From positions 28,676 to 92,675 of IMG/VR virus record IMGVR_UViG_3300019762_000005: 64,000 nucleotides of DNA; one strand, written 5' to 3'. A model generated the notes under the pieces. It was not told the DNA's origin. It did no database searches and saw nothing but the letters and a program-made list of their open reading frames with translations. Positions within the stretch are counted from its first letter, which is position 1. Every line of letters begins with the position of its first letter. The position numbers were made by a program, and so were the translations under genes. This DNA comes from a virus. Shown here one piece after another: positions 33,199 to 60,400 of this stretch.

Positions 33199-33748
33199 GA
33201 TTGAAGTAGACCTTGTTAAATGTCAACTAAACAATATTACTCCTAGCGATTATGTTTTGATACACCTCATGTATCACAGGGATTACAAAAGGATAGAAGG
33301 AATTTTCACTAGAAAAGGAGCTTCTGAGATCAAAAATGGACTAATAGGAAGCAAGTATATACTTAGCGGAAGAGAAGTTCCATTCAAAGAGACAATCCTT
33401 AGTTTGAAGAATGTTAAGTCCTTATTGAATATCAAAGATGATACATTCGATTTTTGGAAATGGTATAGTATATATCCTCATAAAGTTGGATCGAGAATCC
33501 TTAGAGCTACTACACATGGCTCTAAAGCTGCAACGGACCACGAAAAGAAGTATAGACGAGTCGTTAAATCAATCGAGCATCACGATGAAATTTGCAAAAG
33601 GACTGAAAACTATGTAGAATCGCAAAGGATAGCTGAAAAGTTACCATATTTGCCGGCAATACTAACGGTTCTTAATGGTAGATTATGGGAGCAATGGGAC
33701 GATATTGAAAAAGAGGAAGACGCAGCATGGAATCAGACGCTTATATAA
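33191..33748 (+). CDS. Helicase loader / replication organiser-like protein
   Basis: 185 aa. The C-terminal part has FDFWKWYSIYPHKVGSRILRA and ends LPAILTVLNGRLWEQWDD, the two signatures (WxxYPxKVG...; P..TxLNGxxWExW) of the C-terminal domain of phage replication proteins and DnaT/DnaD-type loaders. It overlaps the DnaB gene by 22 nt. Inferred job: load DnaB on phage DNA. Confidence 0.6.
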   Translation: MSKIEVDLVKCQLNNITPSDYVLIHLMYHRDYKRIEGIFTRKGASEIKNGLIGSKYILSGREVPFKETILSLKNVKSLLNIKDDTFDFWKWYSIYPHKVGSRILRATTHGSKAATDHEKKYRRVVKSIEHHDEICKRTENYVESQRIAEKLPYLPAILTVLNGRLWEQWDDIEKEEDAAWNQTLI

Positions 33749-35547
33749 AGAAGATATTACAAAACATCGAGAGAGGGAAGCAAGGTCTTAATGTTGGGTT
33801 GCCAATGGGTCTTAAAAGATTGGGCTCAGTGATAAGCAATATTCAGCCAAAAACGTACACTATTATATCTGGTGGAACTGGTTGTTACGACAGTAATACT
33901 GAGTACTTCAATGGAAAGCAATGGAAGTTCTTTAGTGACTATAAAAAAGGAGAGAAAGTCTTAATGTATAACGGTGACGGAACTGCAGAGTTAGTAATTC
34001 CTTCTGAATACATAAAGAAAAAAGCTTCTTACTTCTATAACTTCAAGAGCAAATACGGAATAGACCAGATGATTTCTGGAGAGCATACCGTGATTACTCT
34101 TTCAAAGCAGGGAAGTATAGTTAAAACTAGAGCTGATAAGTTTGTTGAAGATCATAACAAGACATCAAGAGGGTCTAAAAAAGCATTTATAACTACGTTT
34201 AGGTACAAGCCTGAAAAAGAGATAGATGTTAGTAAAGATTTGATAAGGAATTATATAGGCGCAAGAACTAAAGTTTTTCCTGATGAATGGTACAATATGT
34301 CTAGTTCTAGTTTGAAAGTTTTTCATGACGAGCTTAAATACTGGGATGGTAGTATACCTAAGAATAGTAGCAAGCTGTACTCGTACTCTTCTAATAACAA
34401 GAAGAATATCGACTTCGTTCAGTTTGTCTGTTCCTCTTTAGGGTATAGAGCTAGTGTACACGTAGATGAAAGGTATGAGAATAAGAACTATACTATTTAT
34501 CAATCCAATAGAACGAAGCCTATGATGGTTAATTCTTTAGGAGTTGACAAGATAGATAAAGTCTATAACCACGATGGAATGAAATACTGTTTTACTGTTC
34601 CTTCAGGAATGTTAGTAACAAGAAGAAATGATTGTATAACTATATCTGGGAATACAGGAAAGACAGCTTTCGTTGATACAGCCTACGTTTCAAACCCTTA
34701 CAGACATATATTGACAGGTAATAACATTTACGATTTGGAGGTTATTTATTTTTCGTTAGAGATAGATCCAGAACAGAAAATAACAAAGCTTATAGCTAAT
34801 AAGTTATGGGCTGATTATGGATTAAAAACTACCGTAGGAGAGATACTTTCAAAAGGAGATAAAAGAATACCGCTAGAGGTCGATAGAGCTATAGGTGAAA
34901 CTACTGATTATTTTGTCAAAATGGGAGACAAGATTAAGTATAGGAGTGCAGCTAGTCCAGATTATATCTATAGAGAGTTAATGAACTACGCTAAGAAAAG
35001 AGGTAAAATTACATTGAACGATAAGGGAATAGTTATTAACTATCAACCTCATAATCCAATGTTAGTAACCTTAGTTATTGTAGATCATATAGGTCTTATA
35101 AAGCCAAACTCTAAAGATAGAAACCTTAAAGAAGCTATAGATAGAGCTTCTAAAACGTTGATATACTTTAGGAATATATTTGGATTTGCTCCAGTTGTTG
35201 TTTCTCAGTTCAATAGAGCCATAGAGGGGCACGACAGGATGAAAGGCGATAACGAACCTAAGCTTAGTGATTTGAAAGAGTCTGGAGGCCCTAGTGAAGA
35301 TGCTAATCTTGTTATAGGATTGTACTACCCATATAGGTACATGAAGCAAACTCATCTTGGATATGACATGAAGATTATGAGGAACAATTATCGTTCAGCT
35401 CATATTTTGAAAAACAGAGATGGTCCTGATGGAGGTGTGATAGGATTAGCTTTTAACGGAGGTAACGGATTCTTTAGGGAAATGCCTACCTTAGAACAGC
35501 TAAAAACTACCGTGTCTTACGATAGAGTATTGGCTGCAGTTAGATAG
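33727..35547 (+). CDS. dnaB: Replicative DnaB-like helicase with intein
   Basis: 606 aa before splicing, 349 aa after. The extein runs ...YTIISGGTG | TGKTAFVD..., so the Walker A is split at GGTG/TGKT. Helicase motifs follow: H1a FSLEI, Walker B LVIVDHIG, H3 VVVSQFNR, H4 LSDLKESGGPSEDANLVIGLYYP. The N-terminal DnaG-binding domain of full-length DnaB is missing, as in many phage helicases. It must self-splice to be active. Confidence 0.88.
   Translation: MESDAYIKKILQNIERGKQGLNVGLPMGLKRLGSVISNIQPKTYTIISGGTGCYDSNTEYFNGKQWKFFSDYKKGEKVLMYNGDGTAELVIPSEYIKKKASYFYNFKSKYGIDQMISGEHTVITLSKQGSIVKTRADKFVEDHNKTSRGSKKAFITTFRYKPEKEIDVSKDLIRNYIGARTKVFPDEWYNMSSSSLKVFHDELKYWDGSIPKNSSKLYSYSSNNKKNIDFVQFVCSSLGYRASVHVDERYENKNYTIYQSNRTKPMMVNSLGVDKIDKVYNHDGMKYCFTVPSGMLVTRRNDCITISGNTGKTAFVDTAYVSNPYRHILTGNNIYDLEVIYFSLEIDPEQKITKLIANKLWADYGLKTTVGEILSKGDKRIPLEVDRAIGETTDYFVKMGDKIKYRSAASPDYIYRELMNYAKKRGKITLNDKGIVINYQPHNPMLVTLVIVDHIGLIKPNSKDRNLKEAIDRASKTLIYFRNIFGFAPVVVSQFNRAIEGHDRMKGDNEPKLSDLKESGGPSEDANLVIGLYYPYRYMKQTHLGYDMKIMRNNYRSAHILKNRDGPDGGVIGLAFNGGNGFFREMPTLEQLKTTVSYDRVLAAVR
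33883..34653 (+). other. Intein in the DnaB Walker A (257 aa)
   Basis: Starts Cys (CYDSNTEYFNGKQWKFFSDY), has a block B-like MISGEHTVITL and a C-terminal block F/G stretch YCFTVPSGMLVTRRNDCITISGN, followed by Thr. The middle (FHDELKYWDGS...IDFVQFVCSSLGYRASV) looks like one half of a LAGLIDADG endonuclease. At 257 residues the endonuclease is probably partial. Confidence 0.85.
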
Positions 35548-36537: not shown

Positions 36538-37165
36538 TTTAAGTTTCGGTATACCAAAAAAAGCAGTAGTAATTTCATGGGATTTTAACCCTGAAATAGC
36601 AGCAATCAAAATCTCTAAAAAAGCTGAGAAAGGAAAAGCTACAAAGATAAGTCTTAACGCTAAAGGAGCTGCAATGCTTACTGGAGAAGGAGAAGATGCT
36701 TCTTTAGAGCAAATAGCTTTGAGCTTTGACGAAGAGAATAAAATCATGAGAGTGGCAAATATTAAGGTGGAGTCTTCTGTTAAGTTGACAAAATCCAATC
36801 CTCGTTCTTTCTCAAATTCAAGAACATACTTATATATTTGTGAGTTTTTAGGTTTGGACGGAGAAGAAGATGCTATTTTCGAATTAGTAGCTGAAGAGAG
36901 AGAATTCCCTTGTGTAGTATTAAGACCTATTGGAGCACCTATAGATTCTGCAGGTGAATCAGCTACGGAAGAAAATGATACTAAAGAAACTGCTCCTGAA
37001 GAGAGTCCAGAAAACTTACAGCCAGTTGATGCTGCTGAAGAAACTGAAGAAACAGAAGAAACATCTCCTGAAGCAGATAGTCCTAGTGAAGAAGAGGATG
37101 GTGGAGTAGATTCGTCTGATGTAGACAGCTCTGTTACTCAAGAAGACGAGGATGATTGGGACTAA
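36530..37165 (+). CDS. SSB-like protein with acidic DDWD tail
   Basis: 211 aa. An N-terminal folded domain (about 1-135, beta-rich) and a long acidic, disordered tail (EETEETEETSPEADSPSEEEDGG) ending QEDEDDWD. The folded domain plus acidic, aromatic-containing tip is the layout of SSB proteins. It overlaps the Sak4-like gene, the usual SSB partner. OB fold not proven from sequence alone. Confidence 0.62.
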   Translation: MTDLSFGIPKKAVVISWDFNPEIAAIKISKKAEKGKATKISLNAKGAAMLTGEGEDASLEQIALSFDEENKIMRVANIKVESSVKLTKSNPRSFSNSRTYLYICEFLGLDGEEDAIFELVAEEREFPCVVLRPIGAPIDSAGESATEENDTKETAPEESPENLQPVDAAEETEETEETSPEADSPSEEEDGGVDSSDVDSSVTQEDEDDWD

Positions 37166-37250: not shown

Positions 37251-37874
37251 ATGAGTGTAGGAATTGATTTGAATGACGACGAGTTTAATGAAGGAGAATC
37301 TAAAGGAGCTATCAATGGTGGTAAAGCTGGATTAGTAGAAAACTTGTCATTTGTAAAAGTTACAAAAAAAGGAAAAGACGATCACGAAAAAGCTCCTGAT
37401 TATAAAGTTTTCTTTAAAGATGAAAATGGAGTCGAACTTGACATGCCTTTCTACTATTTAGATCCTTCGTTAGAATGGTTTCCTAAAGCCAAGAAAACTC
37501 AAGGGGCTGCAATGAAGTCGTTAATTACGACTATGATAGACCCTGAATACAACGAATGGGCTTTTGCTAGTTATAAAGCTATGTTGGACACCTGTATGAA
37601 AATGCTTAAAGATGCTGATACTGAGCCTCTTTATAGAATTGCTACGAACTACGGTACTAGCATGAGTCATAAAGCATTTATTCAGTTTAGAACGTGGACT
37701 CCATTTATTGAGTCTATGGAAGTTCCGATGGCTGAATCAAAAAAAGGATTACGTCCATCTAGTATTGAGATGTTGACTGGGTTAGAAGCTGACGAAGACG
37801 GTTCTGGTAACAGTCATTCTTCTACTCAACCTCCAGCTGGAGCTGCAGCAGCAGAAGAAGACGATTGGGATTAA
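37251..37874 (+). CDS. Second SSB-like protein with DDWD tail
   Basis: 207 aa. N-terminal beta-rich region and a middle with W and F residues (DPSLEWFPKAKK, FIQFRTWTPFIESMEVP), followed by an Ala/Ser-rich linker and the end AEEDDWD, the same tip as the previous protein. A strong terminator follows, so it may be highly expressed. Together the pair looks like the single-strand coating system. Confidence 0.62.
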   Translation: MSVGIDLNDDEFNEGESKGAINGGKAGLVENLSFVKVTKKGKDDHEKAPDYKVFFKDENGVELDMPFYYLDPSLEWFPKAKKTQGAAMKSLITTMIDPEYNEWAFASYKAMLDTCMKMLKDADTEPLYRIATNYGTSMSHKAFIQFRTWTPFIESMEVPMAESKKGLRPSSIEMLTGLEADEDGSGNSHSSTQPPAGAAAAEEDDWD

Positions 37875-37944: not shown

Positions 37945-38961
37945 ATGGTAGACCTTAATGAATTACAATACGAAACTAATTATGAAGAGCTGAGAGACTT
38001 AATATTTTCGAAATATTCAGATGAAGAAATATTTAGATATTACGTTGGAGATTTCAAAATAGGTAAAACATTTATAAGTCCATTTAGATCAGAGAGAATA
38101 CCATCCTTTGCTATTTTTATAGGAAAGAATCATGGAGACTTAATGTACAATGAGATGCTCTTAAAAGACAAGGGTGATTGCTTCAGGCTAGTGGAAAGAC
38201 TTTTCAACCTGTCAGCTATAGATGCTCTTTTAAAAATATGCTTAGATTTAAACATACAAAACACAGGAGTTTCAGATGTAGACAGAGTGAGGATAAAAGC
38301 GATAAAAAAGAACAGAGTAGTAGAACCCTTAAACATAGGAGTCAAATACAGAGAATGGAATAGAGAAGATAAGATTTTTTGGTCCAGTTTTGGAATATCA
38401 AAAAAGACACTACTAAGGTACAATGTTAGGCCTATATCTCATGTGTTTTTTAATGGCTTTATGGTAAAATGCGATCCTTTAGCTTATGCTTTTAAGGAGA
38501 TGAAAAAAGGAAATATAACCTTTAAAATCTATCAACCTCATTCAGAAACTAATAAATGGTCTAATAATCATGGTAATTCTGTAATACAAGGATGGGATCA
38601 ACTGCCTGAGACTGGAGAAATACTAATAATAACATCTTCATTAAAAGATTCAATGTCGATTATTGATAATAACAAAATACCAAGCATAGCTCCTCAAGGA
38701 GAAAATCACACGTTCTCTAAAGAGATAATCAAGGAATTAAAAGCAAGGTTCAAGAGAATATATATTTTCTACGATAATGATTACACCAAAAAGGTTAATT
38801 GGGGTCAAGAATACGCTATGGAGACATGTTTAGAGCATAACTTGTTAAATATATGTATTCCAGAAAAGTGTAAAACCAAGGATTATTCCGATATGATTGA
38901 GAGGCATAAAAAACAAAAAACAGTAAGATGGCTAGATTCAGTATTGAAAAACGTAGCTTAG
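37945..38961 (+). CDS. dnaG: DnaG-like primase
   Basis: 338 aa. N-terminal part FISPFRSERIPSFAIF...KGDCFRLVERLFNLS is the phage-type DnaG N-terminal core. The TOPRIM region has LIITSSLKDSMSI (in place of the usual ExGxxD), PSIAPQGEN and RIYIFYDNDY (DxD). No obvious zinc-binding domain. Makes RNA primers with the DnaB-like helicase encoded just upstream. The start is 12 nt after the terminator T tract. Confidence 0.8.
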   Translation: MVDLNELQYETNYEELRDLIFSKYSDEEIFRYYVGDFKIGKTFISPFRSERIPSFAIFIGKNHGDLMYNEMLLKDKGDCFRLVERLFNLSAIDALLKICLDLNIQNTGVSDVDRVRIKAIKKNRVVEPLNIGVKYREWNREDKIFWSSFGISKKTLLRYNVRPISHVFFNGFMVKCDPLAYAFKEMKKGNITFKIYQPHSETNKWSNNHGNSVIQGWDQLPETGEILIITSSLKDSMSIIDNNKIPSIAPQGENHTFSKEIIKELKARFKRIYIFYDNDYTKKVNWGQEYAMETCLEHNLLNICIPEKCKTKDYSDMIERHKKQKTVRWLDSVLKNVA

Positions 38962-39206
38962 AACTACCTATAGAACTATGGGGAAAATTTAGCAAAGAGG
39001 ATAAATTAGCTTTTATTCCAACAAAAATTAAAAATCACTACGCTGTAGTGAAGTCAAGATTAGGGCTTTCAAGTAAAGATGGAATCCGATATAGAGGAAT
39101 TAACCAAAAAGAATCTAATGTATTTGGTGACATTAGAAATGCAAACATTACATTTGCATTTAACTATAAAAAAACACCAGTAATAAAACTAAACATTATA
39201 GAATAA
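38928..39206 (+). CDS. Small hypothetical protein
   Basis: 92 aa, overlapping the primase gene by 34 nt and ending in the TAATG that starts the Ub-like gene. Basic alpha/beta sequence (KRSLELPIELWGKFSKEDKLAFIPTKIK). Not recognised. The coupling links it to the Ub-like gene. Confidence 0.6.
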   Translation: MARFSIEKRSLELPIELWGKFSKEDKLAFIPTKIKNHYAVVKSRLGLSSKDGIRYRGINQKESNVFGDIRNANITFAFNYKKTPVIKLNIIE

Positions 39207-39715
39207 TGAGATCAATAATAACTTACAGCACTAGAGGTGCTAAACTTGAAACAATAGAAAGTGATGCTACTAGATTAGGAGCTCTTAAAGAAGATATGGA
39301 TGAAGCTGGAATAGATTATTCAGGGTTAAAACTTATGGTTTCTGAGACCGAAGTTACTCTTGAATCTGACGAAGCTGTTCTTCCAGAAGGAGAATTCACA
39401 TTGATGATGCTTCCAGATGAGGTTAAGAGTGGAAACTCTAAAGACTGGTCAAAAATGTCCTACATTGAATGTTTTAATGAGGTGAAATTAAGAAAACTTA
39501 TAAGTGAAGACGGTCTTGACGTTAACTTAGATTTTCAAGATTTAGTTTCAATTCTTAACAAGTCAGACTTAGAAGGTTCTGATTACGGAGTAGAAAAGAA
39601 AGAAAGCCTTGAAGAAAGAATGGATAGATTAGAGAAAAAAGTATCAGAACTAAGCTCAGGTCCAGATACGTCTACCTATGCTAAAAGAGCAGCGGAGTTA
39701 GGAAGAAAAAGATAA
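39206..39715 (+). CDS. Ubiquitin-like (Prok_Ub / PRTRC-C-like) protein
   Basis: 169 aa. Residues 1-75 fit a beta-grasp pattern: strand SIITYSTRG, helix DATRLGALKEDMDEAG, strands LKLMVSETEVTL and EGEFTLMMLP, ending DEVKSG, a position equivalent to the C-terminal Gly of ThiS/MoaD-type modifiers. A helical extension (about 77-169) follows, ending KRAAELGRKR. Identification leans on the three genes next to it (E2-, JAB- and E1-like). Trimming after KSG by the JAB enzyme could create the conjugated form; this is inference. Confidence 0.62.
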   Translation: MRSIITYSTRGAKLETIESDATRLGALKEDMDEAGIDYSGLKLMVSETEVTLESDEAVLPEGEFTLMMLPDEVKSGNSKDWSKMSYIECFNEVKLRKLISEDGLDVNLDFQDLVSILNKSDLEGSDYGVEKKESLEERMDRLEKKVSELSSGPDTSTYAKRAAELGRKR

Positions 39716-39741
39716 GGCTGTTAATCAGTATTTTTTAACAC

Positions 39742-39770
39742 AAAGGGAGGCGTTGCTTCCCTTTTTTTTT
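39742..39770 (+). terminator. Terminator inside the Ub-like cassette
   Basis: AAAGGGA / TCCCTTT (7 bp, extended by a GC-GTT-GC inner stem) followed by nine T (39762-39770). It lies between the Ub-like gene and the E2-like gene, whose ATG is only 10 nt further on. It should make the modifier more abundant than its enzymes. Confidence 0.85.
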
Positions 39771-39779
39771 GCAAAAAAA

Positions 39780-40760
39780 ATGACAAATAAAGAACAATGC
39801 GAAGAGGTATTACAGAGAATGTTTAAAGATTCTTGGGAGATAAAGAACGAAGAAATAGTAATAAGAATAAAAGACTTAACGATAAGAAATTCAAAACAAA
39901 AATCTCATGTTATAGATGATATATTTGTCAAGATTAAGGTGAATGAAAGTATGAAGTTTAAAACAGCTGGATTAGAAGGTTTTAGGTCAATATTCAAAAT
40001 AAAAGACTTCTCATCTAGTTATGCTCACTCTCATTTACCAGGAAGTTGCGTTAGAAATTCAATGGATTTTAAGAGCTTCTGCTTAGGAACAGGACCTATA
40101 AACACGATAATAATGAAGCTTGTAGCTAAGTTTGATATCACTAGTTTCACTTTTTTTCTTCATCAACTTAAAGTTTATCTAGGCTGGGAAAGTTTAGAAG
40201 GGAGACCTTATAAACTTATGTCTGGAATCAAGCTAAAGCTTGACCACTCATCTTCTCGAAGTATATCGGTATTAGACTTTCTTCTTGATGACGTAATTCT
40301 AATGTCAAAGTCAATGAGGTTTAATATATTGTTGTCAGAAAATGAAGTCAAAATACTTAGAGACAGTACCTTTTACGAGAATGTAAAGAACTATATAGTT
40401 TCAAACGAAATACCTAATTGCATGTTTTTGTTTAAAGATGGAAAATACAGTAATGACGATGTTCTAGTAGGCGATGGATTAGGTTACGACACTATAGATA
40501 ATGATTTTATAAAGATTAGAAACAAGGACAAATTTATTTTTAGAGATGAAGAAATAAGGATCTCTTTTTCGGACTACAAGCTTGGAGAAAATAATAAAAA
40601 ACTAGGTGTCGAAGATAGAGAAGAAAAAATCGTTCATCATAAAGTTCTTGATAAGATAGAAGAACATTTAAACACATTATTAATTAATTATTATGAAAAA
40701 AACAATAAAAGAATTGCCGAGAAAACCAGAGATTATCGTTTCAAAAAAGTTATTGTATAA
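39780..40760 (+). CDS. E2-like (Prok-E2 / PRTRC-B-like) conjugating enzyme
   Basis: 326 aa from the ATG at 39780; an in-frame start 27 nt earlier falls in the terminator. The region SSSYAHSHLPGSCVRNSMDFKSFCLGTGPI (78-107) resembles the HxH...(F)CLG active-site stretch of bacterial E2 families, with C101 as the likely thioester Cys and H83/H85 before it. The C-terminal half is not recognised. It overlaps the JAB gene by 68 nt in another frame. Confidence 0.58.
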   Translation: MTNKEQCEEVLQRMFKDSWEIKNEEIVIRIKDLTIRNSKQKSHVIDDIFVKIKVNESMKFKTAGLEGFRSIFKIKDFSSSYAHSHLPGSCVRNSMDFKSFCLGTGPINTIIMKLVAKFDITSFTFFLHQLKVYLGWESLEGRPYKLMSGIKLKLDHSSSRSISVLDFLLDDVILMSKSMRFNILLSENEVKILRDSTFYENVKNYIVSNEIPNCMFLFKDGKYSNDDVLVGDGLGYDTIDNDFIKIRNKDKFIFRDEEIRISFSDYKLGENNKKLGVEDREEKIVHHKVLDKIEEHLNTLLINYYEKNNKRIAEKTRDYRFKKVIV

Positions 40761-41811
40761 GATACATAGGCTTTGTCAAAAAAATGTTAGGATAGAATGG
40801 TCTGGAATAATGTTTCATAAAGAACTGGAAGGTGACATGTCAGACCCTTCTGGATTTAAGTTAGAAATAGTAGACATGTTACTAATGGATGTAGGTACTC
40901 ACTCGTTTACGTCTTACAAATTTGATGCAGATTTCGTAAGGTTTATGAAAAAGAATCCTGAGTATATGAAAATGAAGCTTTCTCAAATTCATTCCCATAA
41001 CGATATGCCTGTATTTTTCTCCTCTACAGATGTAGACGAGTTAAAAATAAATTCTCCTAATCACTTATACTATTTATCATTGATAGTTAACAATGCTGGA
41101 GATATGGAAGCTAAGATAGCTGTTTCAAGAAAGACTAAAAGTGTTCAAACAACAGTCATAGATTACAAGAAATGGGAAGAAGGAAAGTGGAAAGATAGTC
41201 AAAGAACCGAAGTTAAAGAGTTTGAGTCTAAAGAGATGGAAACATTCGATTGCAACATAAAAGTTGAATATGATCCTGAATTCGAAGAAAGAATGGAATA
41301 TATAGAGAAAGTTTCAAAAAAGCGTGCTGAGGAAAAATTAAAACTTGAACGTGAACTTAGATTTAAAGATAGTAGAAGTATAGAAAGACTACCATCGTTA
41401 TCTACAAACAGTTCTCTTCACGGGAAAAACAAGCAAATGATGGCTAATTTTGACAACGACGATTGGGATGTTGAAGAAGAAGAAGAAAACAAAATTATTC
41501 ATGTTCAAGAAATTTGGGCTAGAGTTTCATTTGGCAAGAACTTCAAGACTGATTTTATAAATGTAGACACAATTAAAGATACATTGAAGGTGTTAAACGA
41601 AGGTATTCCTGTCGATAAAAACAAGTTTGTAACAAGTCTTGAAAAAGACATTGTTGATGCTATTGGAGTTATGAAACTTAAAGGATCTATAGGTGAATAT
41701 ATAGACATGCTTAGAGACGAATTAGTAGAATATGAAGGAGACTTCAAATTTGCTAAAAGATTAGTAGAGCATTTAGATAACAATGTAATACCTAAATACT
41801 TTACTACATAA
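40693..41811 (+). CDS. JAB/JAMM metallopeptidase with C-terminal extension
   Basis: 372 aa. A complete JAMM site: E35 in IEWSG, then HSHNDMPVFFSSTD (H100, H102, S110, D113), exactly HxH-x7-SxxD. JAB enzymes remove or process ubiquitin-like tags by zinc hydrolysis. After about residue 150 come a helical region, an acidic stretch NFDNDDWDVEEEEE (253-265, containing the DDWD seen at the ends of both SSB-like proteins) and a second domain. Linked to E2- and E1-like genes on either side. Confidence 0.85.
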   Translation: MKKTIKELPRKPEIIVSKKLLYKIHRLCQKNVRIEWSGIMFHKELEGDMSDPSGFKLEIVDMLLMDVGTHSFTSYKFDADFVRFMKKNPEYMKMKLSQIHSHNDMPVFFSSTDVDELKINSPNHLYYLSLIVNNAGDMEAKIAVSRKTKSVQTTVIDYKKWEEGKWKDSQRTEVKEFESKEMETFDCNIKVEYDPEFEERMEYIEKVSKKRAEEKLKLERELRFKDSRSIERLPSLSTNSSLHGKNKQMMANFDNDDWDVEEEEENKIIHVQEIWARVSFGKNFKTDFINVDTIKDTLKVLNEGIPVDKNKFVTSLEKDIVDAIGVMKLKGSIGEYIDMLRDELVEYEGDFKFAKRLVEHLDNNVIPKYFTT

Positions 41812-41813
41812 TT

Positions 41814-42560
41814 ATGAGCACTATAAAGAAAATAGATTTAGCAGAAGCACATGAATCTGTTTCGAGATTTAAGGGTGCTGAATGGATGGTAGAACCGTTA
41901 GATATTTTGTTACTAGGTGCTGGAGGTATAGGTAGTTGGACTGGATTTTTCTTGTCAAGAATAGGCCATAATCTATCTGTATTTGATGACGATACTTATG
42001 AAGTAGGAAATATGTCAGGACAGTTCGTAGCTAATTGCGGAGTAGGTGTTCAAAAAAGTGAAGCTTTAGTCGATTTGATGTATGGGTTTAGCGGTGAGGC
42101 CCAGACTTTTAATCATTCTAATTACGGAAGGTATGAAGAGAACAGTATGACATCTCCTATTACCATAGCTTGTTTTGACAATATGGCTTCAAGAAGACTT
42201 GCATTTGACAAGTGGTTTAACTATTTGAGAGAAAATCCCGACAAAAGAAAGGATGCTATATTCATAGATGGAAGACTACTTGCTGAGCTTTTTCAGATAT
42301 TTACTATCCAGGGTAGCGACATCAAACAGATAAAAAAGTATTACAAGTATTTGTTTAGTGATGATGTAGTAGAGCCAGAAGATTGTTCATTGAAGCAAAC
42401 AAGCCACGTAGCTGCAATGATAGGTGCTGAGATAACATCTACATTTAATAATTGGATTGCTAACAAGGTTACTGGCATAAATTTTAGGAAAGTCCCTTTC
42501 TATCAGGAAAGATTTACACCTACAATAATGCAGAAACTTAAGTCTGAAAAAGAAATGTAA
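41814..42560 (+). CDS. E1/ThiF-like activating enzyme
   Basis: 248 aa. Rossmann nucleotide loop ILLLGAGGIGSW (31-42), acidic end of the second strand VFDDDTYEVGNMSGQ (57-70), TIACFDNMASRRLAF (117-131), and a candidate thioester Cys in EDCSLKQTSHVAAMIGA (C191). It should adenylate the C-terminus of the Ub-like protein and pass it to the E2-like protein. No CxxC zinc pair. It starts 2 nt after the JAB gene. Confidence 0.8.
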   Translation: MSTIKKIDLAEAHESVSRFKGAEWMVEPLDILLLGAGGIGSWTGFFLSRIGHNLSVFDDDTYEVGNMSGQFVANCGVGVQKSEALVDLMYGFSGEAQTFNHSNYGRYEENSMTSPITIACFDNMASRRLAFDKWFNYLRENPDKRKDAIFIDGRLLAELFQIFTIQGSDIKQIKKYYKYLFSDDVVEPEDCSLKQTSHVAAMIGAEITSTFNNWIANKVTGINFRKVPFYQERFTPTIMQKLKSEKEM

Positions 42561-42561
42561 T

Positions 42562-43164
42562 ATGTATTATAAAAACTACAATCGAAACGAGCAAAAGCCT
42601 TCATTTAGGTTTTTAGCTAACGAAAATACATGGGTAGATCCTAGCTACAGTAATGTTAAGTTAAGACTTTACCAAAGTGTGCTATTTAATTCAAGTGTAA
42701 ACAGAAACAGCATGAAGTCAATGTTGATGAATTTTAGTAGCAGTAATACTCAAAATTGGGAAGTTCGTATTAATGGTGGTCAATGCGTTTTTCTGTGCGG
42801 AGGAGGATTCCTTTATGACTACACTGCTGGTAAGTTTCTAGCAATTATGACTATAGATAGAGATTACCAAGACTTACCTATACTAAATAGTAGGTTAGTG
42901 GATAGATTTTCGTTTATGACTGTTAGGTTTTCAAGAGAATTTTACGAAGGTAAAAACAATGTATATCAGAAACTATTCAGGTCTTTCAAGTTCAATGCAG
43001 CTCCTAGATTAAAGAAAGAAGGAGTTTCGTTTGAAGTTGTAGAAGATTATAGAGATATGATGTCTGGAGTGAGAAAGATTATAGACTTAAGCGATCATAA
43101 AACGATAGAAGATATTAACCAATACAAAGAGAGAGTAGCTAATGAATTTAAACATAGGGAGTAA
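42562..43164 (+). CDS. Hypothetical protein linked to the Ub-like cassette
   Basis: 200 aa, starting 1 nt after the E1-like gene and overlapping the next by 23 nt. Beta-rich, with VRINGGQCVFLCGGGFLYDYTAGKFLAIM in the middle and a C-terminal helical part. I cannot name a family. Its position suggests it could be a target or adaptor of the cassette. Confidence 0.6.
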   Translation: MYYKNYNRNEQKPSFRFLANENTWVDPSYSNVKLRLYQSVLFNSSVNRNSMKSMLMNFSSSNTQNWEVRINGGQCVFLCGGGFLYDYTAGKFLAIMTIDRDYQDLPILNSRLVDRFSFMTVRFSREFYEGKNNVYQKLFRSFKFNAAPRLKKEGVSFEVVEDYRDMMSGVRKIIDLSDHKTIEDINQYKERVANEFKHRE

Positions 43165-43744
43165 AGTACACAAAAGTGGGGATAAGATCGTAGTAGAAGT
43201 GCTTAGATTTCCCACTCATATATGTGTAAAAGAGAAAAAGAGAACACCAGCTAAGCATGTAAAAGTTAATGGACAACAGATTTATTCTGGCCTTCATTAT
43301 CAAACTAGAGCCGTGTTAGTTACCAAACTGAGAGAAGCCTTGATGAAAGAGTTCGTTAAACATTTCGAACCTTTCACTGAGGAACTTGAAAATATGATTC
43401 CGTTGGAAATTTCAATGGAATGGCATGTGCCGCCAAACTGGGAGACAGTTAGATTTTCTTCAGTTAAAGAAGTCCTTTTATGGAAGCCTATAAAAGAAGG
43501 AAAGAAATATAAAGGATTGTTTGATGCAGATAATCAGTGGTTCTGGATAAAGACCTTCACTGACTGCATATCAAAGGATATGGGATTGATACCTGAAGAT
43601 AATGTCCCAATAGTTCCTATAAACGGAAGAATCAAACATGTCCCAGTAAAGCACATGGATGATAGAAAACTTGTATTTATTGTAGAGAAAATACAAGACG
43701 TAGAGCATATTAACCTTTTAAAAAAATATTACGAATATGAGTAA
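43142..43744 (+). CDS. RusA-like Holliday junction resolvase
   Basis: 200 aa. The segment GLFDADNQWFWIKTFTDCISKDMGLIPEDNVPIV has the RusA pattern D-x-D-N...K...D...(I)xDDxxV, though with two extra residues before the Lys and an E-D instead of D-D. A basic N-terminal half would bind DNA. The likely reaction is cutting branched DNA before packaging. Confidence 0.58.
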   Translation: MNLNIGSKVHKSGDKIVVEVLRFPTHICVKEKKRTPAKHVKVNGQQIYSGLHYQTRAVLVTKLREALMKEFVKHFEPFTEELENMIPLEISMEWHVPPNWETVRFSSVKEVLLWKPIKEGKKYKGLFDADNQWFWIKTFTDCISKDMGLIPEDNVPIVPINGRIKHVPVKHMDDRKLVFIVEKIQDVEHINLLKKYYEYE

Positions 43745-44705
43745 TTACAGAGAGATGCCGGGCATGAACCAATCTCTTTTGAAGAAGATATTAATCAGCC
43801 CTTCTTCCTACCTTAAAACAAAGGAGGAAATGTATATAGATACTGATGAGGATCATTACAGACTAGGTCATTTGTTTGACTTTATAATGACTGAAGATAT
43901 GTCAACTTTTAAAGAGCATTATGTCGTGGACGAGGGAGACTTCAAGACTAGTGAAACAATATTTGGAATATTGAACCAAGCTGCCTCAGAGATGGACTAT
44001 AGCGATGATAATCTTATAGCTATAGCCAAAAACTTTGAATACGGAAAAAACTGGAAGAACGAAACTATCTTGGATAAGATAAAGACAGAGGGATGGGAGC
44101 AGTATGTTGATTTTAGAATTAACGCTGTAGGAAAGAAGATGGTGTCGCTTACTGAGTATAATAACTGCGTAATGTCTAAACTTAAGCTTACGAGAAACAA
44201 GTACACGAAAAAGTATTTCTCTACAAATTCATTTATAGAGATTCAAAAGAAGGTTGTTATAACTAACGTTGTTTCTGGAGTCAGCATGAAGTACGAACTA
44301 GATAAAGTTGTTATTAATCATAAAGCTAAGAAAATTCAGCCGATTGATTACAAAACTATGTCAGGAAGCACTTCTTCTTTTATGTATAATTTCTGGAAGC
44401 TTAGATATGACTTTCAAGGAGCTATGTATTGGGACGCATGTTTAGATCATTATGAAGATTTAATGTCTAAAGGATATACTGTACTTCCGTTCAGATTTAT
44501 AGTAGTCGAACCTGCAGGAGTTAGCGAACCTATGATTTATCAAATGAGTGAAGAGACTCATTTAGCAGCAATGAGAGGTACTGAAATACCTCCAAAAACA
44601 GTCGAAGGTGTTCAACAAGCTATCGAAAGATTAACGTGGCACATGACTAATGATGAGTGGGATTATCCTATGGAGTATTACGAAAAAGGATGCATTATAA
44701 TATGA
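43737..44705 (+). CDS. PD-(D/E)XK nuclease, exonuclease VIII-like
   Basis: 322 aa. Nuclease core: YELDKVVINHKAKKIQPIDYKTMSG with E187/D189 and D204-x-K206, followed by the conserved YDFQGAMYWDA helix (QxxxY motif). An N-terminal MNQSLLKKILISPSSYL helix and the GHLFD stretch complete the RecB-type/PDDEXK phage family layout. Likely 5'-3' resection or DNA repair in step with the Sak4-like protein. Confidence 0.82.
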   Translation: MSNYREMPGMNQSLLKKILISPSSYLKTKEEMYIDTDEDHYRLGHLFDFIMTEDMSTFKEHYVVDEGDFKTSETIFGILNQAASEMDYSDDNLIAIAKNFEYGKNWKNETILDKIKTEGWEQYVDFRINAVGKKMVSLTEYNNCVMSKLKLTRNKYTKKYFSTNSFIEIQKKVVITNVVSGVSMKYELDKVVINHKAKKIQPIDYKTMSGSTSSFMYNFWKLRYDFQGAMYWDACLDHYEDLMSKGYTVLPFRFIVVEPAGVSEPMIYQMSEETHLAAMRGTEIPPKTVEGVQQAIERLTWHMTNDEWDYPMEYYEKGCIII

Positions 44706-45301
44706 TGAATTTCAATGATACAACTATATTTTTGTTCCCTTTACTAGGTATTCCTAAATTAATATTTAGTAAAGGACATGAAACAAGATATATAAACAGT
44801 TTTCTTAGAGATGACTGTTTAGCGAAGTATGGTCATTATCATTTATTTATTACTCATAAGAATTTCCAAGACACGCAATTTAAAGCGTTTGAAGATTCTT
44901 TGACTTCCCTTGATAATTATGTAGATGAATATGATATTTGCAATAACGAAGTTGGTGTTAAGATTTTCAAGATACCAGAAGAACATATAGACGATTACCA
45001 TGCCTTTATTGAAGGTAGGTATTCTGATTTTTCTAAAGAAGCACAGGAGAAAGTGCTAACCAATAATTTCTCAATAATAAGTTCAGCGCATATAGATTAC
45101 CTTAAGCAGGTGTTTAATAAGTGCGAGATTTTAAGAGACTTTCAAGAAAAGAAAGTAGGTCAAAGCATTTTCAACCAAGATGTGAGATCAGTGTATAACA
45201 AAGAAAAAAACGTACTAACCAAGAATATGAAAAAGATTCTTTCATCGAGAAAGAAATTAGAAGCAAAACTTGGTGAAAACGAAGAAATAGAACTATACTA
45301 A
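44702..45301 (+). CDS. Hypothetical protein between nuclease and UNG-like genes
   Basis: 199 aa from the ATG at 44702 (ATGA overlap with the nuclease stop); it ends in the TAATG that starts the UNG-like gene. Helical, with a basic end (MKKILSSRKKLEAKLGE). No family recognised. Coupled on both sides, so probably a repair or recombination partner. Confidence 0.65.
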   Translation: MMNFNDTTIFLFPLLGIPKLIFSKGHETRYINSFLRDDCLAKYGHYHLFITHKNFQDTQFKAFEDSLTSLDNYVDEYDICNNEVGVKIFKIPEEHIDDYHAFIEGRYSDFSKEAQEKVLTNNFSIISSAHIDYLKQVFNKCEILRDFQEKKVGQSIFNQDVRSVYNKEKNVLTKNMKKILSSRKKLEAKLGENEEIELY

Positions 45302-51422: not shown

Positions 51423-54400
51423 TTACTTACAGTCTTTTTTTTCTAATTTGTTTTTAAAGTCGTCAAAACTTAACGGTCTTTCATTATCTGAGAACACATC
51501 TTGAGGAGCACTCTCTCCAATACTATCTGGATCTACAAATGTACCAAAAGGATTTGACTTTTTAACCTTTGATAGAACTTTAGGGTTAACACCAGTAGTA
51601 TTTACCTGACCAAGACCTGCTCCTATAGGTTTTCTGGTTAGGGCGGTATTGTCGTTTACCAGACTTATAACCTCTTTTAAAACTATAGGGTTTAAGTCTA
51701 CTCCCTTTTTTACTCCTAAAGCTACTAGTATCGACTTAAACACTTCTGTTAATTTATCAAAGAATGTTTTCTTGTCGTTCCATATTTCAGTCTTCATGAA
51801 AGATTGAAACTTACTATCAGTCATTGATATAGCTACAAACTCCTCTATGTTTAAAGCTGCTCTTTGCCATGTATCGTTATACATTAAATCGTTAAGCTCT
51901 GACTCTGAATATCTACTTTCCATTTTCTTGACAAACAAAGAGTGTAGAGCTTTAATATTATTGTAAGCTTTTCCTTTCTTCTCTTTTATCACAGCTACAG
52001 TTACAGCATGTAAAGCTTCATGTAGTAGAGTTTTGCTTAAATCTCCAGTAGTAGGGTTTATAGCAATCTCTATCTTTCCTGTATTAGTAGACCTTCTTGT
52101 AGCTCCTTGAGCCTCCAAATCTGACTCTATAGAGAAAGATATATCTTCAGGAAGAGATTTTGTTACCACATCAACCAAGTCTTTATATTCGGGGTTAACA
52201 TCTACTTGCTCCAGTAATCTCGTTATCTTCTCTTTTCCAGAAATATCTAATCCGTCTATCTCGTAGAATTTGTCAGAGTTGTCAACGACACTGTCTTTTT
52301 TCGGCACAGCTATTTCATTAACTCCATTTATAGTGTTTTCGTTATTCTTTTCAATAACACTGAGAAGATTAACTTCCGACATATCATATTCGCTAATATC
52401 GGTTGTACCGAGGGTAGGTATTTTTTCCCATGTAGATCCATTGAACTTGAATAGTAAATCTCCAGCCTGTTGTTCAACTCTAATATATGTAGGTGTCAAG
52501 TCTAACTCAGAGTTGTATGTTAACTCGTAAGCCTTGTTAATTGGAACACCTCCGAAATCTAAAGACTTAGAGTCTACAGTTTCAATCTCGAAAGAGTTGT
52601 TCTGAAAATACTGAGTCATAAATCCATTAGTTATTCTATATCCAGCTGTGTCTCTAAAATCTATATCTCTCAACATTTCTGAGAATCCTAACTGATTGAA
52701 TACTTCTACAGGTATATATTTAACGAATTCTTTAGCTTGCTGAATGCCTCCGTTCATCATAGAGTACACCATTAAGTCACCTATAAGTTCATTAGAAGTT
52801 CTGTCGATTGAAGGATAATTTTTGTTTCCAGCAAACATATCAATGACAGACATATAGATAGACTCTTCATCGAAATCTTCTCCTTTAGCAGCATCAAACG
52901 TTACTAATGATGGCTGTCCATTGAAGTTTATCTCTGTATTAAGACGACCTATGAACGGATGTTTATCCATTCCTGGTTGTTTCTTTAACTTGTCAATAAC
53001 AGATGCTAAAGATTGTTTAGTTATAACACCTTTATCATCTTTTCTATCCATTAATAATTCGTCTCTTTTTTGAGGAAGATAAGCATCAAACGTATGTTCA
53101 AAAGAATCTGTGTACAAGTATGACTTAAGGCCATTAAATATCTTTTTGAATATCTTCTCAGTAATAGCTTTCTTTCCTGTTATCTCTTTGTATTCAGATA
53201 TAGCTTCTCTAACTACTGGAGAATCATAAGGAAACAATTTAGAGAATATTTCATTACCAAGTGCAGCTCCTCTAACAGAAGCGAATCCGTTAATAGTTGT
53301 AGGTCTAATCCAATAGGGGCCAACACGTTGATAACCTGATTCTTGAGGATTATCATCTTCCATGTCTTTTGGTAAAACATAGTCACCTATAAGGTTGTCT
53401 GCTCCTCCTATTGATTTGTGTCCGTATAAATCTATAACTCCATCAACCTTCTTGTTAAGAGCAAACATAGATTTACCAACCCCACTACTATCAGAGTTTA
53501 TTGCTAACTGAATCTCAGTGATAGTATCACCTAGCTCATCAAGCTTTATAAACTTCGCCAATATAGCTTTCTGAGTAGATTTGTAGTCAGCTATAGCTTC
53601 ACCTTTCTCGACATACTCTAATAGATTGCTTGTAGACCTATCAGCTAATGCTGGATCAACTTCTCCATCTATTTCATCAAGCATATTTCTCATTATGTCT
53701 TCTTTCGTTAATCTTTCAGAAGCAAGAGCAGAGTCATTAACTGTAAGTCTGTTTGCTAATTCGAATATAACATCTTGAGATATTACAGCTGATATTGTAC
53801 TTTCATCAAACCCTAATAGAGCTAATGCTTTAATAGTTCCAAAAGTATATCCATTAATATTCAACTTGTCAAGAATTTGCTCTTTCTCATTATCCACGGC
53901 TGCAGATTGATAAGCAGCAATGACATCTGATATGTATTTCTTTCCATCAAGAGTTTTTGCATTGGATATGACTCCAGTAGATTTCTGAAGTCCAAACCTC
54001 ATCTCAAATGGATTCTTTTTAGTCCCTCTAACAAACAGCCCTTTGTTTTGTGCAGTCGCATGGAATACAGAATCTAAAGACAAAGCTCCAACCCCTGCCT
54101 TACCTGCAGATGCGTTTACATATTTCTGTCTTTGGTAGGTGGCAGACGTGGGATTGAATAACTTACTACCTTCTAGTCTAGCACTCCTTTGATTAGCGAT
54201 TGTGTTAGCAAGTCCTTCAGCTCCATCTAAATCTCCAAAATCAATAGGCTTAGCCATTAATGATTGCATTTCAGTATCAGGATTAGACATTACCGCATTA
54301 TGAATATCTAGGATGCTGTTTTGAGTTTGCTTTTCTTTGAACTCGCTTTTAAGTTTTCTCCAGTTTTCTGGAATAGCGTCTTCACCAAACATAGCTTCAA

Positions 54401-57400
54401 GCAATTTCGTTGAAGCAGGATCATCATCTACATGGTTGTCGTATATCATTCTAATGTTCTCATCAGTAAGTTTTCTCACATCTAAGAACGTACCGTCAGT
54501 ATCTTGGAATATATTGTACTGGTAAGTATAAAGCTTATCAACATCAAAATCTGATCCCATCTGAATAGTTAAATCCCTAGAAGCGATCAATAAATCTCCC
54601 ATCTCTTTCGGTAGAAATCCAACAATCTCCATCATCATCATAGAGTTATGACCCTGGGTAGGAATACGAAATCCAAACAACTGCAATAGTTCTTTAGGAA
54701 TCTTCGTTTCGTCAAGCATAAGCTTTCCATCTACTTCAGTAGCGTAATCCTGTACATTGATAACCTTTCCATTTCTATCCTTCATTATAGTCGGAACAAG
54801 CACTTGAGAAGGTCTAAATGTAGAAGATGTAAACTTGTGAGGTAATAGCTCGTTATTAAAAGAACTAGTCCATACGATCTTGTTCTTGTACTCAGAAAGA
54901 GCACCTGCAGATTCTTCGAATGATTTCACATTTCTAAAACCTTCTTCCGAACCTAATACATAAGATTTACCATGATGTTTCTTCTTTATAATCTTGTTAT
55001 TAACTATCGAAGTTAGTAGAGATTCTACTTTCTCTGTACTAGTTAGGGCCCACAAAGGGACTTTAAAGTCACCGTCAACGATTTCTAATGCCAACTGGTC
55101 ATTAAGAGGATAGTCTCTCTCAATAGCCTCTTGAATAAGCATTTCCCCAAGCTTCTGTCGGTTAAGATCCTTTCCGTTCCATTCTAAATCTTCTATCAAC
55201 TGATTGTAAGAGTCTTCGTATATCTCTTCGTACAAAGAATTGTAGACAGCTTCAAGCTTTTCTCCAGTATATTTTTTACCGTTATAACTGAATCCACCTA
55301 TACCTTTGATATTAGAGAACAAAAGCTTTCTTTCTTGAGTACCAACATTAATCTTGTCTTTATCCTCTTTATAAGGTACATCTTGCTGAATTCTCCATCC
55401 ATCATAAGAAAGGTCTATAGCGTTATCGAAAGATATGTCATTCTTAAGAGTTCCATCTTTTTCGTAAGCTTCTACAGAGTTAGAAGGAGCACCTACTTTT
55501 GTAGCTGTATAGAAAACAACTTTGTCAACACCTTGCTCTTCCATCTTTTTTCTCATCTTGTCAATCTCTAATCCTCCTGTTAATTGAGGAAGTAATGGAA
55601 ATGCAGAAGACTTGATATAGATACGTCTATCCAAGTCGTTATGTTTTTCAAACTTGTTGGAAACATGAACCGGTTTTAACGGCTGAAATACCACGTCTAG
55701 CTCTCTACTATCTAAAGACTCGTTCTTTTCAAGCTTCTTAGTAAGTTGTTGAAGCTTCTTTTCAGAAATCTTTCCAATTCCTTTCAACACTTTCAAATGT
55801 TCTTTCCATGATACAAACTCTTGAGCATCTGCACCTTCAATATCGAAGTACGGACTAGACTTTGGATACTTAGCTTTGATTTGTCCTTTGATGCCTTTAG
55901 ATCCATTCTTGTACGATTCTATCTCTGCATCAGTTATTTCTTCACCATCAAGAGTCTTTGTATAGAACTTGATATTGTTGGATACTGATTCTGGATCTTT
56001 TATGAATGCAACTTTATAAGTTCCTTTCAAGTCTGATTCATAACCAGGAGCTAAATCACCAGCAAGACGTTTACCCATATTGATAAATGTATCCATAGAT
56101 TGCTGTACTGAATCATCAGACTTACTCTTGTAAAACAATGCAGGATCTCCAGTATAGTTTTTGAATACGCTTGCATTATGAAGCATATAGTTAATAGCGT
56201 AATCAGCAGCTATATTCTTAAGACCATGCTTTTTGAACTTCTTCTTATATTGAGAATCAACAAACGTTAAAACACCTTTGTCATTTACAATACCTAGATT
56301 TCTCCAGTCTTCTATTTGTTCAGATATTACGTTGTTGAGGAAATCTTTAAGATACGCAATTATAGGCTCTGGATTATTAGGAGTTATAACTAGCTTTCCG
56401 TCAAGCATTATACTCGGGTCATTGTTAAGCTCTGGGAATATCAAGAACTTATTAGCTCCATCTTTGTATCCCTTTACGTCCACACTCTTACCATTCTCCT
56501 TTATGTTTTCAAAAGATCTGATTCTGTTCAATTCTGGAAGTGCCATTTGCTCATATACAGTTCTAACAGAACTATCTGAGATACTTCCGTTTTCATCGAC
56601 ACCTATATCTTGAGCAAGTGTTTCTAGTAGTAGCATTGTTGACTTATCGGACATAGTAGGGTAGAACATCTTAACTCTTCTGTTCCCTTCTTTGTCAGAA
56701 GCTCCCCTGTTTGCGAACAACCCTAGCTTCACAACTTCATGTTCCATAGGAGAGTTCTCGGTAAGTTTACCAGAACCTTTCGCTTTACTCTTTAGTTTCT
56801 TAAGTGTTTCAAGAGATAAATATGACACCTCATAGAACTTGTACATCTTACTGTTTTTATCTATAACAATCTCTCCATTGTCGGCTATCATAGGTTCTCC
56901 AGCATCATCCAGTAAGGCCATTCTCATAAGGTCGTTATGAGTACCATTGAATGATAAAGAGTTTAGTTGTGTTAGCTTTGTGTTGGTAAACACTTTCTCT
57001 CCATTGAACGTAGACTCATTCAGTCTTTTTAAATCTTGTATCCTATTGTTTGCATACTTGTTATTACTGAATGACCAGATAGTTTTCTCTCCTGCCTTGT
57101 GAGATGCGCTATACTTGTTGGTTATGAACTTGCTATTGACCTTCGCTAAATGTTTAATCTCTGTTTCCTTGAATGGAAGAGACAAAGTATCCAGAGGTTT
57201 CTTCTTTTTTGACAAAGCTGACAATGTGTTAACCATCATAGCTAATGGAGAAGCTTTAGGAAGCGTCATTAGCTGCTTGTATGTAAGTACTATTCCTGCC
57301 TTATTCTTGTATTTACCAGTAAGCATCTTGTCTATAACATCTTCACTAAGGTCAAGACCTATAGAGCTTAATAAATCGGTGAAAACTTCCTGACTAGGAG

Positions 57401-60400
57401 GTGCTGTTTTGTAACTTTTGAATCTAGCTTCTACACTTTGAAATGCTTCTTTATCAACAATATGATCTCCTTCGTCATTAGACTTTATGTACGGCATTGA
57501 AAACAAGTTACCTTTCCATTCTTTCAATAGAATATCTTCCACCTTCCCTGAGTTAGAATCTGCTGGAGACAATGTGTACTTTCCTCCATCTACTTTCCAG
57601 AATACCATATTCATCTTAACGTGATGTTTAGTCATCGCTACAGTAAACTCAGTTTTAACCTGGTCGTCAGCAGTCTTAAGCTTGTCTACAAAGTTTTTCA
57701 TCCAAGGCTTAGCAGCGTGTATTTCTGTATCAGAAAGAACATCTACATAGTCATTGAAGTCTGGTTTCCTCCCTGCCAACAAACTCATAACCTCGTTAGA
57801 CACTTCATCAAACTCCATAAAGTTTTCTATACCAATAAGATTATGAGTATTAGAAGCTGGAATACCTGCCATAAACATCTTGAGTCTTTCACTCATTGTG
57901 TCCTTTGTATTCAGCAAGAATGTAGTAGAACCGTCTTCAAAACTTTTCTTCTCTAATATTCCAGCACTTTCTCCAAAGTCTAAATCTTGACCTGTTTCTC
58001 CTTCTATAATCTTGATATTTGAATACTTAGAAAGCCTACGCTTAGTAAGTGTAGCTACATTTTCAAAGTTGTTTACAAATAGTGATATTAAAGCTTTCTT
58101 TTTTCCTGTAGCTTCATCTCTTAACCTCTCAAGATTATCTTTTTCTTGCCTAAAGAAAGTTACAGTATCCTCTTTAGAAAGCTTATTATCGTTCTCTAAA
58201 ATCTTAATGAACATTTTAGCAGATATACCTCTAATAGTAGAGTGTTGTAATCCAAAAGGAATCTTAGGATGAATGAATAGGTGCTCAACAGAACTTCTTA
58301 ATGCTACTTTGTTGTCTTGAGTAAAAGGAAGTTCAAAGACATCAAAGTCAGAAAAGTCTATATCTTCATCATCTTCGAAAGTTTCTTGACCGAAATCAAA
58401 CTCCAAAGCATCATAGTTAATGTTTCCTTTAGAGTCAACAGCTTTTACATCTGATTTAGGAGCAGCTTCTTTTTTAGCAGCTACTTCTTTGTTGGCAAAT
58501 GAATCGTCAAATTCTATTGAAGGTTGTATTGTGTAGATGTATTCAGGGTTCTCTTCAGTACCAATATTAAAAGACAATAATCCTGTAGATGTATTCTCTT
58601 TGATTAAGTCGTTGTACGAGTTAGCTAGTACGTCTACTTCTCCATTTACCAATCCTTCTACAGCCTTAGAACTGTTAATACTTGTTTGGTTTACATTGAA
58701 GAAAGACTCTTCCAAATGAGTCTTTAATCTGTTCATTATAGCAGGTCTAGCCTCTTCTGGAGTATTAGCAGAAAGAGAGAAAGTTTTCATTCCTCCACCT
58801 GCACCAAAGTCGATACTATTTCCAGTAACTGTCATTAGCCTGTAAATAGAATTCACATCTTCATGCTTTAGGTAATCCTCTAAACTGTCATACGTGTCAG
58901 GGACGTTAAACAAGTAAGCAAATTGCTTTAAGTATTTTCTAAGACCTTCAACATTTCTAACGTCAGTTTCGCTATTGTTTACTAAGTGCTCTGATAAGTC
59001 ATTATGTTCTTGAGAAGAGAAAGCTTCAACTGCTGATATAATACTATGTACCATATCGCCACTCATCTTTTCGTTAGATATAGGAGTAGCGATTGACTCT
59101 CCGTTAGAAGTAGGCAACAATGTGTACGCTACACCTTCTAACAAACTATCAACATCATTAATCAAGCTACCTTTGAAAGGGGTTTTCAATCCTTTCATTT
59201 CTCCATTCACAGTTATGAATATCTTAAGATTTGGGTCTGGAAAAGCATCAGATACTTTCTGGTATCCATCTTTGTTAGAGATTAGAGACCCTGGCTTTTT
59301 ATCACTAACAGTAGTGCTAATAGATCCTTTGTCAATAATCTCTTTCCTTATACTTCTAATATTTTTTAAGTTCTCTTCTATAGATCCTTTGATATTTTCT
59401 TCCTTCATCCAATCTGCAGAATGTAGATATGCAATATTTCTTCCTTCAGAATCTTTAATAACTATAGGAATGTAGTCTGCGATCTCAGATTCAGACAGGT
59501 TGCTTTTCAAAGCACCCCAAGTAGTCTTCTCTTTTTCAGTACTGTTAGGTACGTAAACTTCTGTTTCAGCGTTATCATCAACAGCTATAGTTATAGGAGT
59601 CCCAATGTCAAAAGAATCGCTAAGTAGCAACTTACTGTTTCCTTCTAATAGCGAATTGTCTAAATCTTCCCTGCTAACTTTACCTTCGTCATTAACCATT
59701 TGAGAAAATGCTCTCGATAAGTACGCTAATTTGTTGTATCCGTCTGTGGTTCTACTATAGTCGAATTCATCGTTAGTATCGCTTGAAGCTTCTGCATTAG
59801 CTTTTTTAACGTCTGCAACTGCTTTTTCAGAAGCTTCATCAACATCCTTTGCTTTGTCCTCGTTGAACACGTCGTTTAGAGTTGATTCTGTTTCGGAAGT
59901 TTTTTGAGCAGCAAACTCTCTAGCATCTAAAGCTTTCTGAATAGCCTGAGACTTCAGTGCTATCTTATCAGCCATATCTGGAGTTAACATATCTAAGTCA
60001 TCAGCATACTTTCTAATCTTGTCAAGTTCACCCTGGGTAGCAGAACCATCCACAAACTTCTCCAAGTCAGCAGTAGTTGTTGTTGATTGTTGTGGAGCTT
60101 CTTTAGCTACAGAACTCTGGTCCTCTTGATGTTGGTAGAACTTTTTAGCAAGGTCTTTCAATTCTTTATCGCTTAACGATTGATTGCCTTCAATAGTTTC
60201 TTTAGCATCTTTAAGATCGGTCTTTTCCTTCGCTTTCTCTTCTTTTCTTTCAGCTTTGTCAGCTTCTTTAGCCTTTTCTCTTTTAGCGTCTTCAATATTC
60301 TTTTCAGCTTCTTCTTGAGCTTCAGCAGCTTCTATACTTTTTTGTGCCTGATATTCTGGAGTAATTATCTCGTTGAAAATATCGTCTAATTTCTTAACAT

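Follow-up and report, generated by a model that had tools for sequence, protein, structure and literature searches.

A predicted ubiquitin-like conjugation cassette within the replication gene cluster of crAss-like phages

The locus at positions 39206-42560 of a 64,000-nucleotide stretch of viral DNA (hereafter, the window), which forms part of a 92.7-kb IMG/VR record (IMGVR_UViG_3300019762_000005, positions 28,676 to 92,675), raises the question of whether a phage can encode a ubiquitin-like (Ub-like) conjugation system of its own and, if so, of what kind. An initial annotation had proposed four consecutive genes here, for a Ub-like modifier, a conjugating (E2-like) enzyme, a JAB/JAMM peptidase and a ThiF/E1 enzyme. 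The four open reading frames (ORFs) were present as described (Table 1), lying head to tail in the order Ub-like precursor, E2-like protein (X), JAB and short E1, with genes that abut or overlap one another. We consider it likely, with a probability of roughly 80%, that they specify a complete, reversible Ub-like conjugation system that crAss-like phages maintain as part of their core gene set.

The Ub-like protein matched no Pfam family by sequence, and searches of Pfam and PDB sequences with its family profile gave nothing useful, the matches stemming from the coiled tail. An AlphaFold2 (AF2) model of residues 1-80, built with 55 relatives, had a predicted local distance difference test score (pLDDT) of 86.7 and a beta-beta-alpha-beta-beta-beta topology (strands 2-8 and 13-19, helix 24-34, strands 41-45, 50-52 and 64-70). 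Ubiquitin has the same order and spacing of elements, with a glycine at position 76. By Foldseek, the best PDB matches to the model were mostly ubiquitin chains (probability 1.00, E about 1e-3, template modelling (TM) score about 0.5-0.7), and the predicted beta-grasp ending in Gly76 thus bore out the modifier call. A glycine closes the fold in every relative, mostly within KSG and otherwise within RSG, ASG, SSG, KAG, AAG, KGG, etc. It is followed by as little as one residue (KSG-K, KSG-R, AAG-Y) and by as many as 217, and no relative stops at the glycine. Because the glycine is universal while the tail is never absent, the gene product looks like a precursor with a tail that is free to vary and would need removal, as a JAB would do; the initial annotation had likewise deduced trimming after KSG, with an extension of about 90 residues (93 in fact). 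In most relatives the tail holds no second Ub-like fold, i.e., there is one fold of 76 residues. In cr106, an HNH gene breaks the Ub-like gene two residues past KSG and leaves the modifier intact. In Kolpuevirus-type phages (L005:3335-4261, L047:2325-3260), the tail appears to hold a ribosomal L7/L12 C-terminal domain (Pfam E 3e-10, one alignment member).

The JAB carries the JAMM signature E35, H100-S-H102, seven residues and S110-xx-D113, and practically all of the roughly 91-94 aligned relatives retain these residues, in line with the original call. On the window protein the Prok-JAB Pfam profile scored 14.6 bits, below its cut-off of 25, and CSN5 and archaeal JAMM1 were matched weakly in a profile search with the JAB family. 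The E1 matched Pfam ThiF above the cut-off (E 4e-8), and its profile search retrieved UBA5, MccB, ThiF, Uba1, Cap2 and others. The candidate thioester residue Cys191, present in 95/96 sequences, was aligned by hhalign with the cysteine of PRTRC ThiF; the earlier identification of a GAGGIGS-bearing E1 with such a cysteine therefore holds.

Amongst 91 relatives of X, Cys101, Gly103 and Glu137 were invariant (Cys101 and Glu137 in 91/91) and H83-S-H85 nearly so. The latter, which differs from the HPN motif of E2 enzymes, sits about 16 residues upstream of Cys101. The AF2 model of residues 1-150, with pLDDT mostly above 90, comprises a helix (3-14), four strands (19-21, 25-36, 42-54, 66-72), the loop bearing the cysteine and two further helices (106-116, 120-134). 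This order of helix, strands, Cys loop and two helices is that of UBC enzymes. When 350,542 PDB chains were searched with the model, the three best matches were E2s (UBE2H and Leishmania E2; probability 0.25-0.44). Searches of Pfam and PDB with sequence profiles of X gave no link to known E2 families, and a BFVD search returned phage proteins throughout, several from the family of X itself, and no named E2. We regard X as likely, though not proven, to be an E2-like enzyme.

When viral contigs were scanned with an alignment of the E1, 183 relatives emerged, 80 of which were kept, whereas the window E1 as a single sequence found none. Profile searches and gene order were then assessed in a set of 96 E1 loci. 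The Ub-like gene was found in 88, X in 90 and the JAB gene in 92; missing genes were mostly attributable to contig ends and exceptions in order also to inserts, with a jumbo phage locus (L012) as the clear exception. Wherever all four genes were present they followed the order Ub-X-JAB-E1 on a single strand. Because this order is fixed in nearly every uncut relative, chance is ruled out as the source of the observation. The neighbouring genes, on whose presence in related phages the initial annotation had made its proposal depend, were conserved in the same order across the 96 loci. The counterparts in crAss001 are gp79-78-77-76, again in this order, and the four genes plus a fifth occur in crAss001, cr85, cr106, cr111, cr112, cr126, cr128, DAC15, Kolpuevirus, bajarodcaudo virus, Dulem virus 41 and Fpv3, with further relatives on dozens of environmental viral contigs. 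The overlap of the X and JAB genes is kept in 76/79 loci (median 56 bases), and the pairwise distance matrices of the four proteins correlate with r of 0.82-0.88, the pattern of co-inherited genes. Since the same search of 84,980 bacterial and archaeal genomes returned just 2 short contigs from metagenome-assembled genomes, the family appears to be essentially viral at this search sensitivity. A plasmid search with the E1 gave two matches, both non-significant.

Some loci depart from this arrangement in detail. Tandem copies of the E2-like gene were seen in L016 (L016:2946-4999) and of the Ub-like gene in L036 (L036:1506-2492). Group I introns (Rfam) lie at or in gaps of the JAB gene in three loci and of the E2-like gene in one (L037:3549-3808, L055:4145-4357, L087:4723-5176, L045:2222-2453), and in further relatives the JAB gene is interrupted near the active site by inserts of no recognised type.

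The window was assigned to a crAss-like phage because it holds a replication gene set (a family A-type polymerase match, helicases, Sak4 and primase, besides a RecE-like nuclease and a UDG homologue) and, at 51423-62279 on the minus strand, a 3618-amino acid (aa) protein that matches a virion structural family of phages and is typical of the crAss-like group, and because the closest annotated relatives of the cassette belong to Crassvirales, family Steigviridae, and to the Flavobacterium Fpv phages. As the initial annotation had located it, the cassette sits in the replication module, with primase (37945) on one side and the RecE-like nuclease (43737) and UDG (45301) on the other. In the 12 named phages it follows primase or its neighbourhood, with UDG adjoining in most and a somewhat different order in Fpv3. 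The corresponding PHROG families (15560 for the Ub-like protein, 15310 for X, 16107 and 21448 for the JAB, 15670 for the E1) are all of 'unknown function'.

The cassette was compared directly with PRTRC operons from plasmids in order to place it; control plasmid proteins did match Prok_Ub and Prok-E2_D. PRTRC operons (e.g., pMOL28, E-C-F-B-A-ThiF) share the order Ub (C), E2 (B), JAB (A) and E1 (ThiF), and hhalign related the phage E1 to PRTRC ThiF at 98% and the phage JAB to PRTRC_A at 77%. On the phage E1, the PRTRC_ThiF profile reached 32.8 bits, below its cut-off of 144.75. No hhalign signal joined the Ub-like protein to PRTRC_C or X to PRTRC_B, neither Prok_Ub nor Prok-E2_D was matched, and no PRTRC E, F or ParB-type partner was matched among the proteins from 37945 to 45301. 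The PRTRC JAB is preceded by a DUF2016 domain that the phage JAB lacks, and the His motif lies upstream of the E2 cysteine in X but downstream of it in PRTRC (Iyer 2006, PMC1779556). Because the Ub-like and E2-like proteins are undetectable as Prok_Ub and Prok-E2_D and the partner genes are absent, the cassette is judged not to be a PRTRC member, contrary to the PRTRC/Prok-E2 type first proposed; by these alignments ancestry is shared in two parts (E1 and JAB), together with the same layout.

Other known systems differ in composition or setting. Bil (BilABCD) operons encode one each of a Ub-like protein, E2, JAB and E1, with the JAB said to trim the precursor (PMC11354881). Going by their description they are distinct: BilA has two Ub-like domains whereas the phage modifier has one, and Bil is a bacterial defence locus whereas the present cassette is phage-borne and inside a replication cluster. 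The E1 adenylation domain of CBASS Cap2/Cap3 and of 6A-type E1-E2 fusions is related to the phage E1; unlike these, the phage cassette has E1 and E2 as separate genes, lacks a nucleotide cyclase and includes a dedicated Ub-like protein. Amongst phages, the lambda-type tail assembly proteins I and K comprise a Ub-like protein with a conserved glycine and a JAB, but come without E1 or E2 and lie in tail genes, to which the phage Ub-like/JAB pairs in that study are confined (Iyer 2006, PMC1779556). The papers searched on crAss001, crAss-like genomes and crassvirus structure contained no ubiquitin, ThiF or JAB term, and literature searches turned up no account of such a system in crAss phages, although an earlier description is possible, as subscription papers were mostly outside the search.

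The fold and terminus of the modifier, the catalytic residues of the JAB, E1 and E2-like proteins, the fixed gene order and the co-inheritance in phages were obtained by computation; we infer the chemistry, the order of steps and the targets of a conjugation cycle. Cleavage of the precursor by the JAB after Gly76 would expose the KSG terminus; the E1 would adenylate the glycine and load the modifier, probably via Cys191; the E2-like protein would take it over on Cys101 and, with no recognisable E3 involved, transfer it to target proteins; and the JAB would strip it from the targets again. As the cassette is invariably located within the replication gene cluster, components of the phage replication complex are our best guess for these targets; host proteins are possible.

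Several points weigh against such a cycle. A cysteine of the E1 type occurs in sulfur-transfer ThiF proteins too. X matches none of the E2 Pfam families, and its fold match to E2s (E 0.17-0.35, TM score 0.2-0.4) is not significant alone, leaving the original E2 call unproven on this count even as the invariant cysteine, the confident model and the identity of the top PDB matches speak for it. No E3 was recognised. X might accordingly be another cysteine enzyme or a scaffold, with the E1 passing the modifier on unaided or with one partner alone receiving it, e.g., the product of the following gene, Y, and the weak fold match and missing profile tie would suit this. The cysteine, the upstream His motif, the order of model elements and the place between Ub-like and JAB genes, as in PRTRC and Bil, nevertheless fit an E2, and we regard a non-E2 role as improbable.

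A sulfur-carrier pathway, in which a ThiS/QbsE-type carrier with a JAB-trimmed tail is thiocarboxylated by the E1 and passes sulfur to a nucleotide or cofactor, would account for the Ub-like, JAB and ThiF-like components, which with C-terminal trimming are known for bacterial sulfur carriers (Iyer 2006, PMC1779556), and public records indeed name the E1 a 'thiamine biosynthesis protein'. Those systems, however, have no E2-like protein, and one with an invariant cysteine, superfluous for sulfur carriers, accompanies this cassette; the cassette showed neither a cysteine desulfurase nor a rhodanese nor any biosynthetic partner, the CxxC zinc motif is missing from the window E1, and the best PDB matches to the modifier model are mostly ubiquitins. 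This pathway is thus quite unlikely. An anti-defence role, whereby the phage modifies host immune proteins or the JAB removes host Ub-like marks from virions, would be in keeping with the use of the same enzyme set against phage by Bil, BUB and CBASS (Bil composition, PMC11354881) and with weak matches of PADLOC E1-E2 models to the phage E1. Typical anti-defence genes are patchy, whereas this set is complete, near-universal in its lineage and placed among core replication genes, and we consider such a role doubtful. Nothing observed points to DNA- or protein-toxin roles.

Xanthomonas/Erwinia jumbo phages (PhiXhv-12/15/16, Ep032; L012:3712-7588) carry a different cassette of Ub-like protein, E2-like protein and E1. 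The Ub-like protein ends exactly in SGG, and an 892-aa protein has an E2-like HPH...CLG motif and Cys-rich ends; the protein of Xanthomonas phage PhiXhv-16 that adjoins an E1 reads RIHPHMAVPSSQESHGSLCLGSF. Its HPH and CLG were placed by hhalign on the HSH and CLG of X at a low probability (12.7%). No JAB was found in the PhiXhv-16 record, as expected for a modifier already ending in SGG if the duty of the JAB includes trimming.

A fast-evolving gene of about 110-410 aa (mostly 190-350) lies 3' of E1 in all loci, belonging to one profile family in 51 of them and to several small families elsewhere, many with a Y-[VI]-P-L-type motif. Its positional equivalent in the window, Y, has no detectable similarity to these families and no Pfam or PHROG match. 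A scheme with Y as the real E2 and X as PRTRC F was dropped, Y being very variable and without a conserved cysteine, whereas X has an invariant cysteine and an E2-like model. Amongst window ORFs of at least 60 aa, DDWD occurs only three times (37151-37162, 37860-37871, 41458-41469), at the extreme C-terminus of two products encoded before primase (36530, 37251) and in the JAB linker. Other lineages have DDLPF-like tips on primase, UDG, JAB or the fifth protein (23 observed versus about 6 in shuffles, all loci), with just 7/99 JAB ORFs bearing one. Acidic tips of this sort resemble those of single-strand-binding proteins; they lend some support to replication proteins as targets, and to docking of the cassette on the replication complex, but as a lead only. 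Upstream, the replicative helicase gene (33727-35547) appears to hold an intein (CYDSNTEYF... to ...ITISGNTGKTA) within its ATP-binding loop.

Table 1. Coordinates of the cassette genes, their predicted functional residues and the adjoining gene in the window.
Feature	Position	Strand	Remark
Ub-like precursor, 169 aa	39206..39715	+	Beta-grasp residues 1-76 plus 93-residue tail
K74-S75-G76	39425..39433	+	Predicted mature C-terminus and JAB cleavage site; Gly universal, KSG usual
E2-like protein X (crAss001 gp78 family)	39780..40760	+	TTG start at 39753 also possible
H83-S84-H85 of X	40026..40034	+	Candidate counterpart of E2 HPN motif
Cys101 of X	40080..40082	+	Predicted thioester cysteine
JAB/JAMM peptidase, 372 aa	40693..41811	+	JAMM domain about residues 13-170, then long C-terminal region
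E35 of JAMM site	40795..40797	+	91/91
HSH-x7-SxxD, H100 to D113	40990..41031	+	Zinc/catalytic motif
E1-like adenylating enzyme, 248 aa	41814..42560	+	Pfam ThiF
GAGGIGS loop of E1	41916..41936	+	Nucleotide-binding loop
Cys191 of E1	42384..42386	+	Candidate thioester cysteine
Y, gene directly after E1	42562..43164	+	By position alone

Bacterial Ub-like conjugation has so far been known mainly from plasmid systems of unknown role and from anti-phage defence. Here, it is a phage lineage that conserves a predicted complete set, and since members such as crAss001 and DAC15 can be grown on Bacteroides in the laboratory, the role of a phage's own Ub-like system becomes testable. A block of five genes publicly annotated as 'hypothetical', 'thiamine biosynthesis' or 'metalloprotease' thereby gains names. 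More tentatively, and with less than an even chance in our estimation, Steigviridae-lineage Crassvirales may replicate their genomes with a Ub-like modification cycle of their own as a core component, the cassette possibly docking on the replication complex. If true, this would apply to viruses that are among the commonest in the human gut.

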